Below, one piece after another: positions 50,473 to 53,685 of a DNA stretch of 64,000 nucleotides. The position numbers and the translations under genes are program-made. The DNA lies in contig NZ_CP040517.1 in NCBI RefSeq assembly GCF_005849285.1, positions 1,928,501-1,992,500 of the forward strand, in the 5' to 3' direction. How positions within the stretch are numbered: position 1 is the first letter of the stretch; each line of letters starts with the position of its first letter. Origin of the DNA: Luteithermobacter gelatinilyticus. Lineage in GTDB: Bacteria; Pseudomonadota; Alphaproteobacteria; Sphingomonadales; Emcibacteraceae. The notes beneath the pieces are model-generated. The model made no database searches and was not told where the DNA came from. It worked only from the letters and a program-made list of their open reading frames with translations.

Positions 50473-51263
50473 CTAGGGCTTAGGCTGGTAGTTTGTCTTG
50501 CGGACGATCGTGGCGACATCGACGCCCAGCGCCTGGGCCGCTTTACGCTTGCTACCATGAAGTTCAATTGCCTTTTCGATAACCGTCAATTCAAAGTGAC
50601 GAACCAGATCTTTCAGGTTTTCCGGCTGGTCAGGATGAGGAACCGGCGGCCCTTCATCATCCATACTGTATTGCCGCCCCCGCCCAGAGAAACATATTGA
50701 CTGGCATGCGTAATACAATCCGGTAGATTTTCCGGCTTCACCACTTCATCGCATTCCACGGCGAGATGCTCGATAATATTTTGCAATTCCCGTATATTGC
50801 CGGGATAATCATAGGTGACCAGACGGGTCCAAGCCTCTTTGCTAAAGCGCAGCGGCCGTCCCCGTTTTTTTACCAGATGCGCCAAGAAGTTTTCAATCAG
50901 TTCCGGGACGATCTCCCGTGTCTCGCGTAAGGGGGGAGTTTTGATCCGAATAACGCAAAGGCGGTAAAAAAGATCTTTCCTAAAGGTGTCTTCGGCCACC
51001 ATTTTTTCCAGATTCCGGTTGGTCGCAGCAATGATTTTGACATTAACCTGCTTCGCTGTGGTGGCTCCCAATCGTTGAACCGTTCCGGTTTCGAGGAACT
51101 GCAACAGTTTGGGTTGACAATAAAGCGGAATTTCTCCCACTTCATCCAGAAACAGCGTGCCCTGGGGGCTGCGCAGTACCTCGACCCGCTCCAGGTCGAA
51201 CATCGGAAATCCGGATCTGGTTTTCAGTCCCGAACTTTCTTGCTTGATGAAAGCAAAACCCAT
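50473..51263 (-). pseudogene. Chimeric, frameshifted sigma-54 activator with a TonB-receptor-like start
   Basis: Read on the minus strand, the product starts at 51263 with 43 residues ending MFDLERVEVLRSPQGTLF, the plug-domain motif of TonB-dependent receptors. It then continues as GTLFLDEVGEIPLYCQPKLL and IIAATNRNLEKMVAEDTFRK, the Walker B and sensor parts of a sigma-54 AAA+ activator. Walker A and GAFTGA are missing. The AAA+ region runs to about 50665, where a frameshift in a G-rich run moves the reading frame. The HTH_8 end (AIELHGSKRKAAQALGVDVA) is in the next frame and stops at 50473. A good AAAGGAT site remains. It cannot work as an activator. Confidence 0.8.
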
Positions 51264-51582
51264 GCCGTTTTTTTCTATCCTTTAAAATCAAACCGTTATG
51301 CTAATTTTTTATTTTTCCCTTTCCCATAATGCTGCCTTTTTGCAACGAACCAACATCAAATAATGCATCATTTGCATCGCGCCGGCCTGCCCTGCATTCC
51401 GTAACCACAACGAGGGATGCGGACATGTGTTAACGAAACATGTCTGCAGTTCGCTATTTTTCAGACTCAGGCTTGTATTTCCCGGTTCGCTCATTACTAT
51501 TTACGCAGAGAACAAACGGCTGCGGAGCAGACAGGCCATGATGGGCAGAACCATATTCCATTCGGGGACAAGGCAGTAAGAT
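51264..51582. other. Intergenic region between the pseudogene and the LuxR-type gene
   Basis: This 319-base gap has no supported gene. The part next to the pseudogene is AT-rich, with T- and A-tracts at 51270-51330. I see no -12/-24 sigma-54 site and no dispersed repeat. It should contain the promoter of the LuxR-type gene at its right end, but no clear -35/-10 pair is visible. Confidence 0.6.
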
Positions 51583-52443
51583 ATGGGCTTGATGTCTCTG
51601 ACCTCGCAGGCGTGGTACGACCTTCTTTCAGAAGCGCTTTTCGCGCCGAACAGTCGAGCCAAGCTGCACGGACTTGCAACCGCACTCAAGAGCCTTGTCG
51701 CCATCGACAGTCTGCTCATTCTTGTCTATCTTCCCCACCAGCGCCCGGTTTTTTATTACAAGGATGCCGACCACAAATGGCGCAAAAACAATATCGACGA
51801 ATTTCTGTCCGGTTATTATCTTCTGGATCCGTTTTATCAGGCCGCTGAAGTCTGTCGCGCGCCCTGTCTGTGTCGACTCAACAGCATTAGTTCGGAAGAT
51901 TTTTACGATACTGAATATTATGAATCCTGGTACAAACAATCCGGTCTGATTGACGAAGTAAATTATCTAATTCCTGTGGATGGCGGGCCTGTGCTCGCGA
52001 TTTCCTTGGCCAAAAACATGGATCACAGCCTGTTCTCACAGACCGAAATCTCTCTCCTTTCGACCATTCTTCCCCTTGTTAAGGGACTTCTCCAGGAGGT
52101 GTGGAGCCAAGGCCTGACCCCGGAGATTTCCGCAGGAGACAGCGAAGCCGCCCACCACCGCGCCCTGCGTGAGGCACAGAAGAATTTTGGTCGTTCCCTG
52201 CTCACGGAACGGGAATTTGAGATCGTGCAGCTTCTGCTAAAAGGCCATTCCACTAAATCCATCGCCGGCAAACTCGACATTTCCCCCACCACCATCAAGG
52301 TGCACCGGAAAAATATATACGCCAAGTTGGACATCTCGTCACATTCCGAACTTTTCTCGCTGTTTTTTGATGCCCTGTCCACCGTCACCCCGGCAGAAGG
52401 GGAAGACCCCCTGATCCGTTATCATATGAGCCGGCGACGCTGA
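51583..52443 (+). CDS. LuxR-type (GerE HTH) regulator, probable controller of glutarate genes
   Basis: The 286-residue protein has a ligand-sensing-like N-terminal domain (about residues 1-190, with LLILVYLPHQRPVFYYKDAD and ESWYKQSGLIDEVNYLIPVD), then a GerE HTH near 205-265: LLTEREFEIVQLLLKGHSTK and TTIKVHRKNIYAKLDISSHS. It is a paralogue of the regulator at 39494, sharing the YAKLxISSxxELFSL ending. Immediately after it stands a 23-bp dyad-containing element also found upstream of the gabT-like gene. It is therefore the best candidate regulator of the glutarate set. The effector is unknown. Confidence 0.9.
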   Translation: MGLMSLTSQAWYDLLSEALFAPNSRAKLHGLATALKSLVAIDSLLILVYLPHQRPVFYYKDADHKWRKNNIDEFLSGYYLLDPFYQAAEVCRAPCLCRLNSISSEDFYDTEYYESWYKQSGLIDEVNYLIPVDGGPVLAISLAKNMDHSLFSQTEISLLSTILPLVKGLLQEVWSQGLTPEISAGDSEAAHHRALREAQKNFGRSLLTEREFEIVQLLLKGHSTKSIAGKLDISPTTIKVHRKNIYAKLDISSHSELFSLFFDALSTVTPAEGEDPLIRYHMSRRR

Positions 52444-52447
52444 GTGA

Positions 52448-52470
52448 CTACTCCCCGGGGGGTATTTACG
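52448..52470 (+). promoter_or_regulatory. Dyad element upstream of the CoA-transferase gene
   Basis: The element runs CTACTCCCCGGGGGGTATTT plus ACG. It matches the complement of 56523-56545 at 20 of 23 positions. The core is a near-palindrome with ACTCCC facing GGGGGGT. It lies five bases after the LuxR-type stop and about 70 bases before the CoA-transferase ATG. Confidence 0.75.
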
Positions 52471-52539
52471 CTGCCACACATCTCTTTATGCTTGGATTTA
52501 CTGGCAAGAGTATCTTCAGCAAGAACAGGTCGTATTGTT

Positions 52540-53685
52540 ATGAATAGCCCCCTGTCTCATATTAAAGTGCTTGATCTCAGCCGTGTTCTGGCCGGCCCCT
52601 GGGCAACCCAGATGCTCGGCGATCTGGGTGCGGAAGTCATTAAAATCGAACGTCCCAAGACCGGCGATGACACCCGCCACTGGGGCCCGCCCTTCCTGCG
52701 CAACCCGGACGGCAGCCAGGGCGACGCCGCCTATTTTCTGTGTGCCAATCGCAACAAAACCAGCATGGTTCTCGACATCAGTACGCCGGAAGGCCAGGAC
52801 AAAATCAAGGCCCTGGCCCGCGACTGCGATGTGGTGGTGGAAAATTACAAGGTCGGCGGCCTGAAAAAATACGGCCTCGATTATGACAGTCTCAGCGCCC
52901 TCAATCCCGGCCTGATTTATTGTTCGATCACCGGCTTTGGCCAGACCGGACCCTATGCCAGCCGGCCCGGCTATGATTTTCTGATCCAGGCCATGGGCGG
53001 CATGATGAGCATCACCGGTGAAAAGGATAGCCTGCCCGGCGGCGGGCCCCAAAAGGTGGGCGTCGCCATCGCCGACGTGATGACTGGCATGTATGCCTCC
53101 GTCGGCATCCTCGCCGCACTTGCCCACCGCGACAGGACCGGCGAAGGCCAATATCTCGACATCGCCCTTCTGGACTGCCTGATCGCCAGCCTCGCTAACC
53201 AGAACATGAATTATCTGATCGGCGGCCAGGTTCCCGAACGCCTGGGCAACGGCCATCCCAACATCGTGCCCTATCAGGCCTTCGCCACCCGCGACAGCCA
53301 CCTCATTCTCGCCATCGGCAATGACGCCCAGTTCAGGCGTTTTGCCGAACTGAATGGGCAGGATTGGGCCGCGCGGGCGGAGTTTTCCACGAACCAAAGC
53401 CGGGTTGAACATCGCAACCAGCTTATTCCCCTGATTGAGGAGGTCATGCAACAACGTACGACGCGGGAGTGGGTAAGCCTTCTCGAACAAAACAACATCC
53501 CTTGCGGCCCGGTGAACACTCTGAAAGAAACCTTCGCGGACCCGCAGGTGATCCACCGCCAAATGGTGCGGGAAATGGTGCGAGAGGACGGGATGCGCCT
53601 CCCGACGATTTCAAACCCCATCAATTTTTCCAAGACCCCGGTACAGTACCGGAGAAGCCCCCCCAAATTGTCTCCTGAAGAGTAG
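52540..53685 (+). CDS. CaiB/BaiF family CoA-transferase, probable glutarate CoA-transferase
   Basis: The 381-residue enzyme shows the class III CoA-transferase opening IKVLDLSRVLAGPWATQMLG, then AEVIKIERPKTGDDTRHWGP near residue 28, PGLIYCSITGFGQTGPYA near 121, and VAIADVMTGMYASVGILAAL near 174 with the catalytic aspartate. It moves CoA between dicarboxylates. Its position between a LuxR-type regulator and glutaryl-CoA dehydrogenase points to glutarate (succinyl-CoA:glutarate CoA-transferase type) as the substrate. The ATG at 52540 is the first family-like start; frames extend upstream to 52444. A small gene follows. Confidence 0.85.
   Translation: MNSPLSHIKVLDLSRVLAGPWATQMLGDLGAEVIKIERPKTGDDTRHWGPPFLRNPDGSQGDAAYFLCANRNKTSMVLDISTPEGQDKIKALARDCDVVVENYKVGGLKKYGLDYDSLSALNPGLIYCSITGFGQTGPYASRPGYDFLIQAMGGMMSITGEKDSLPGGGPQKVGVAIADVMTGMYASVGILAALAHRDRTGEGQYLDIALLDCLIASLANQNMNYLIGGQVPERLGNGHPNIVPYQAFATRDSHLILAIGNDAQFRRFAELNGQDWAARAEFSTNQSRVEHRNQLIPLIEEVMQQRTTREWVSLLEQNNIPCGPVNTLKETFADPQVIHRQMVREMVREDGMRLPTISNPINFSKTPVQYRRSPPKLSPEE

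Follow-up and report, generated by a model that had tools for sequence, protein, structure and literature searches.

A sigma-54 activator remnant joined to a TonB-dependent receptor plug motif at the GTLF codons of both families in Luteithermobacter gelatinilyticus

Pseudogenes and chimeric genes that arise by illegitimate recombination at microhomology are a known class in bacteria. Among the titles and abstract openings listed in a literature search, none describes a fusion between a TonB-dependent receptor and a sigma-54 activator, and here we report such a hybrid on the minus strand of a 64,000-nucleotide stretch of the L. gelatinilyticus genome (the window, to which all coordinates refer). 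On the activator side, its closest intact relatives are proteins of about 470-580 aa from stop to stop, in which a sensor-like N-terminus, putatively PAS-like by our reading, is followed by Walker A, a GAFTGA or GSFTGA loop, Walker B, the lid and an in-frame HTH tail. The hybrid has the AAA+ domain from Walker B onward, the lid and the tail in common with this family, but it lacks the sensor part, Walker A and GAFTGA, and its tail is out of frame. With TonB-dependent receptors, which combine a plug (PF07715) with a beta-barrel (PF00593), it shares about 20 residues around the plug motif FDLERVEVLRxPQGTLF, whereas the rest of the plug and the barrel are absent and RSPQ stands in place of RGPQ. 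An earlier note on this DNA had read the locus as a fusion at GTLF, which turned out to be right in its essentials and over-extended in its details. It is quite likely that the locus is a microhomology-joined pseudogene of a sigma-54 activator that had a sensor-like N-terminus, an AAA+ domain and an HTH_50 tail.

The hybrid ORF (51263..50613, minus strand) starts with ATG, encodes 216 aa and reads MGFAFIKQESSGLKTRSGFPMFDLERVEVLRSPQGTLFLDEVGEIPLYCQPKLLQ. In Pfam, Sigma54_activat is matched on residues 33-107 with 96 bits, covering model positions 93-167 of 168, and AAA_lid_14 follows on residues 113-188. The best NCBIfam match is PrdR, on residues 34-188 with 166.8 bits against a cut-off of 795, and the other NCBIfam matches are sigma-54 activators as well, all of them partial. 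Plug is found below its cut-off of 23.9 bits, on residues 12-38 with 13.6 bits when the whole ORF is searched and on residues 11-38 with 17.4 bits when the first 45 residues are searched alone. Since this match spans only model positions 72/73-99 of 107, a complete plug domain is absent. None of the genome's 45 barrel matches lies at the locus.

The C-terminal half of the sigma-54 AAA+ domain, from Walker B onward, occupies 50721..51161 (minus strand) together with the lid, as judged by Pfam and by identity to the family. From residue 35 onward the ORF matches sigma-54 activators; in relatives, the matches start at residues 23-34 among those listed, and in 77 of 80 activator loci they start at residues 31-35. 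Frames were extracted for 19 of these 80 loci and ten of them were aligned, giving 44-55% identity between the hybrid and the ten family members. Leaving out one of two near-identical members (L069), the hybrid departs at one of 36 columns that are invariant in the nine other sequences; family members treated in the same way show 0 or 1 departures, except L074 with 5 of 40. Walker B, sensor I, the arginine fingers and the lid are present, the first three at what we take to be their usual places in the sequence. Pfam and the family matches bear out that the Walker B part begins at GTLF, as had been proposed. The loss of Walker A and GAFTGA, also claimed before, is confirmed: Walker A is gone according to both the Pfam match, which starts at position 93 of 168, and the family alignment, and the GAFTGA loop is gone according to the sequence and the same alignment. 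The sensor part of the activator is missing, too.

The tail of the hybrid locus, around GSKRKAAxxLGVDIATIVRK, recurs almost unchanged in nine of the 19 activator frames (L067-L071, L073, L074, L080, L083), which are for this reason taken as the parental family of the hybrid. L067 and L070 adjoin genes whose translations presumably represent polyamine-type ABC transporters, and the family may regulate polyamine use. With the L070 protein as query against 118 genomes (own included), no match starting before residue 139 appeared among the matches listed; since no full-length relative was found among them, the L070 gene may be patchily distributed, and its acquisition is conceivable.

Upstream of the activator half, residues 19-38 (FPMFDLERVEVLRSPQGTLF, 51150..51209, minus strand) match the plug motif of TonB-dependent receptors; the residues ahead of GTLF read FDLERVEVLRSPQ. 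A search of the genome with the first 42 residues returned 27 matches, namely the hybrid itself and 26 others with E values from 3e-6 to 0.85. All 26 stop at residue 38 and fall inside the genome's 45 receptor plug regions, for example GLQMFDLERVEVLRGPQGTLY (L043) and LFDLERVEVLRGPQGTLY (L020), in agreement with the plug motif up to GTLF that had been noticed earlier. The comparison of the first residues with TonB receptors, suggested as a check, gave a strong match: against 26 receptor segments, residues 1-34 reach a maximum score of 71, attained by 0 of 200 shuffles, versus 27 against 75 sigma-54 segments, attained by 101 of 200. Outside the own genome, a 56-residue junction query was compared with 117 genomes; among the matches listed, most end near residue 38 or 39, and those inspected contain the receptor motif, an example being GFPVFDLDRVEVLRGPQGTLF in L169. 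Neither this listing nor that of the activator matches in relatives included a genome from the genus itself. Besides, annotated Sphingobium plasmid receptors match residues 5-38 at 55.9%.

The extent of the receptor piece towards the start codon is less sharply defined. Residues 1-12 do not score above shuffles against receptors (915/2000; 365/500 in a second test) or against sigma-54 activators (428/500), and neither do residues 1-20, with gaps allowed, against 26 receptors of the own genome (487/500). An ungapped in-register test against 53 receptor segments, part of which had been fetched because they matched, gave scores reached by 9 of 2000 shuffles for residues 12-20 and by 3 of 2000 for residues 5-20. 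As gapped and ungapped tests disagree on residues 12-18, we grade the receptor piece as firm only for residues 19-38 and as probable for residues 12-18 (from 51230). Residues 1-11 (51231..51263, minus strand) are unlike anything compared, with scores at shuffle level against both receptors and activators. The earlier assignment of the first 43 residues to a receptor therefore holds for the origin, but not for the length, which is firm for 19-38 and perhaps extends over 12-38.

These comparisons also bear on whether the ORF might simply be a sigma-54 activator that has diverged and carries an unusual N-terminus. In tblastn, 3 of the 80 activator loci (L096, L119, L130) do align as far as residue 3, yet this extension pairs FAFIKQESSG-LKTRSG, with gaps, with the GAFTGA loop region and equals shuffles. 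A degenerate GAFTGA in residues 1-18 was considered and rejected, its score of 29 against 75 activators being reached by 83 of 500 shuffles. Because neither residues 1-18 nor residues 1-34 do better than shuffles against activators, the N-terminus cannot be said to align end-to-end with intact activators, an outcome that the earlier note had named as speaking against a fusion. The breakpoint test described below prefers a chimera by 149.9-188.6 bits, and the probability of a divergent activator is practically nil.

The position of the junction follows from the limits of both similarities. Of 19 sigma-54 loci, 17 begin to resemble the hybrid at 51161, with L070 setting in at 51170 and L081 at 51173. 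With 30 receptor frames as queries against the whole window, 15 rows hit the locus; receptor similarity stops at 51150 in 14 of them and continues to 51096 in L045. In a narrower search, whose region ends ten bases later, 20 of 23 rows match the motif and 20 of 20 end at 51150. The two similarities overlap by 12 nt, GGCACGCTGTTT (51150..51161, minus strand), which code for GTLF; the stretch across the junction reads LRSPQGTLFLDEVGEIPL. In two runs of a positional DNA model, 51153 came out as the best breakpoint, and the offsets from 0 to 10 relative to 51161 scored within 3 bits of it. For these runs, 30 of 45 receptor loci were fetched. After motif filtering, run 1 used 8 of 18 sigma-54 loci, none of the eight from the own genome among them, and 21 of 30 receptor loci, and run 2 used 9 of 18 and 26 of 30, respectively. 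The chimera's lead over a pure sigma-54 gene is 188.6 bits in run 1 and 149.9 bits in run 2; over a pure receptor gene it is 213.8 and 208.1 bits. For real genes left out in turn, the gain stayed within 12.0 bits in both runs for receptors, and within 0.0 bits (run 1) and 2.1 bits (run 2) for sigma-54 genes. The breakpoint thus lies inside a stretch common to both parents (51161-51150), as judged on the families and not on the actual parents, and GTLF is retained as the joining point, to within its 11-12 nt, by the similarity limits and by both runs. Since the GTLF codons have the same codon phase in both families, the fusion stayed in frame.

The DNA-level check for parental genes elsewhere in the genome, proposed together with the fusion, led to the two families and not to individual parents. 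Among the 12 sigma-54 domain matches of the genome, nine cover nearly the whole domain, one (93-167) belongs to the hybrid, and two are weak (25-27 bits) and sit in frames of 908 and 777 aa of other proteins; an orphan sigma-54 first half was not found in any of the 12 matches inspected. The genome's 45 plugs and 45 barrels lie in frames of the same lengths, so that no receptor is visibly orphaned. Neither a near-identical donor nor the missing halves of either gene were found elsewhere in the assembly, which is a single contig and 99.3% complete. This absence argues against a chimera created during assembly, and we consider an assembly or cloning artefact joining two real genes very improbable; it fits a deletion that consumed both parents. 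As neither parent was found, we infer rather than prove that two genes of this genome recombined, and the deletion has the status of a model.

A junction consensus probe recovered the own junction with an E value of 1.7e-16, and at E 1e-9 it found only this junction in the genomes drawn from the order (396) and from the class (385, own genome included in each draw), the two draws being samples with some genomes in both and genomes with many candidates being scored in part (18 of 41 and 19 of 41 candidates in the own genome). One candidate for a second fusion (G110:C203, query 14-49) was dismissed, because it reads on as a receptor after GTLF. In 130 receptor/sigma-54 gene pairs of the own genome, built from the 5 of 8 sigma-54 loci left after motif filtering and the 26 of 30 receptors in which the motif was located, the exact run at the GTLF register never exceeds 10 nt. 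Exact matches of at least 12 nt between these genes number 67, all of them outside that register; GTLF is therefore not the longest common stretch on offer. Given these short runs, the 67 longer matches elsewhere and the lack of a second fusion in the draws, we rejected the idea of GTLF as a hotspot. Most consistent with the comparison is a single and probably unique event.

For the origin of the locus, we propose that illegitimate recombination joined a receptor and an activator gene at the GTLF codons, where the junction is seen today. In its simplest form, this would have been a deletion running from a receptor gene upstream, of like orientation, into the activator gene. The receptor would have lost its barrel in the event, and the activator its sensor part, Walker A and the GAFTGA loop. 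Upstream of the plug piece, a search with 30 of the 45 receptors as queries revealed no receptor remnants beyond the same motif. Because receptor similarity extends over only 60 to about 80 nt, with none beyond, a second rearrangement or replacement probably occurred just upstream of the receptor piece. A frame change has cut off the HTH tail as well. The short reach of the receptor similarity, limited to 20-27 residues, would also suit a different course, in which a deletion took away the front of the activator gene and its end point was filled with a copied receptor patch of 60-80 nt; the 33% G+C of the 100 bases around 51250-51349 and their lack of receptor similarity are in line with it. 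However, a recent copy should match its donor almost exactly, and the best DNA match of the receptor piece in the genome is 87% over 52 bp, the best in-register match among 26 of 30 fetched receptor loci being 49 of 66 nt. We hence regard the filler as unlikely, and a direct join of the two genes at GTLF as the preferred course.

The DNA-binding tail of the activator is still recognisable. HTH_50 (TyrR/Fis-like; PF18024, 39.1 bits with a cut-off of 27, and family alignment) lies at 50473..50676 on the minus strand, in a separate frame (ORF 50718..50473) and not, as in a sigma-54 activator, in the frame of the AAA+ part. Its identity to nine family members is 48-73% over 22-66 aa. When the nine tail-bearing members are compared with the locus, their matches in the AAA+ frame run out between 50724 and 50667, and those of the tail, in the other frame, set in between 50676 and 50559. 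These ends and starts place the frame change in the stretch 50620..50720 (minus strand), in which the G-rich run 50685-50674 is the candidate place; a sequencing error in this run is a possible source. The earlier note had described a later frameshift in a G-run that separates the tail. The tail is indeed in the other frame and the G-run is a candidate, but the order of fusion and frame change is unsupported. An ATG at 50664 is in frame with the tail (50473-50664), with a G-rich stretch before it, so that a separate small DNA-binding protein is conceivable.

Without the parts for ATP binding and sigma-54 engagement, activator function has most likely been lost, and the locus as we read it from its sequence is most likely without function as an activator. 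According to PMC7175178, GAFTGA mutants are in most cases unable to activate. The absence of both Walker A and GAFTGA is also in line with the previous statement that the product cannot be a normal activator. The ribosome site said to be kept is a poor one, as AGGA stands 14 nt before the ATG of the hybrid; a weak GGA is found 6 nt before the ATG of residue 21. A consensus scan of the minus strand between 50000 and 51800 revealed no sigma-70-like site. On the other hand, the well-kept remainder without signs of long decay suggests a young event, or some selection that still acts. The hybrid could, for instance, still be expressed as an ATPase-dead partner, while translation from the ATG at 50664 would supply the HTH tail as a small DNA-binding protein of its own. 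The open frame of 216 codons, the 35 of 36 invariant columns kept in the sigma-54 half and the lasting likeness of the tail to its nine relatives would agree with this. Nevertheless, the missing Walker A and GAFTGA, the poor ribosome site, the lack of a sigma-70-like site in the scanned region and the restriction of the junction to one genome among the draws of 396 and 385 make continued expression improbable. That the gene is retained, its ATPase-dead AAA+ fragment bearing a leader derived from a receptor and acting with a separately translated HTH_50 protein as a new sigma-54-independent regulator, is highly improbable. We therefore keep to the pseudogene.

In its surroundings, the hybrid is divergent from a LuxR-type regulator (51583-52443), followed by a family III CoA-transferase (52444-53685) and, beyond it on the minus strand, an acyl-CoA dehydrogenase and a class III aminotransferase. 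On the other side, an FAD-dependent oxidoreductase and an FCD-type GntR regulator are located, and the neighbourhood looks like one of amino-acid or dicarboxylate catabolism, as far as gene content can tell. Directly upstream of the hybrid, positions 51250-51349 have 33% G+C and a GC skew of -0.46. An ORF at 48463-49299 matches DUF6064. Just past the right end of the window, a receptor gene (L203) with an open frame of 801 codons lies on the strand of the hybrid, its barrel match starting about 0.3 kb past the window end.

Taken as an example, the hybrid is interesting; in its consequence, it is modest. It offers a cleanly resolved junction of two unrelated, abundant protein families at a common motif and illustrates that protein motifs can supply the microhomology which keeps an illegitimate join in frame. 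It also calls for caution in annotation, since the name "sigma-54 activator" is misleading at this locus. The kind of event is already known, and GTLF as a general hotspot lacks support here. As in other microhomology-made pseudogenes, the junction is a short identical stretch and the functions of both parents are, by all appearances, lost. Unlike in the class as a whole, the microhomology of the hybrid is a four-residue match of two unrelated and abundant families, read in the same codon phase in both.
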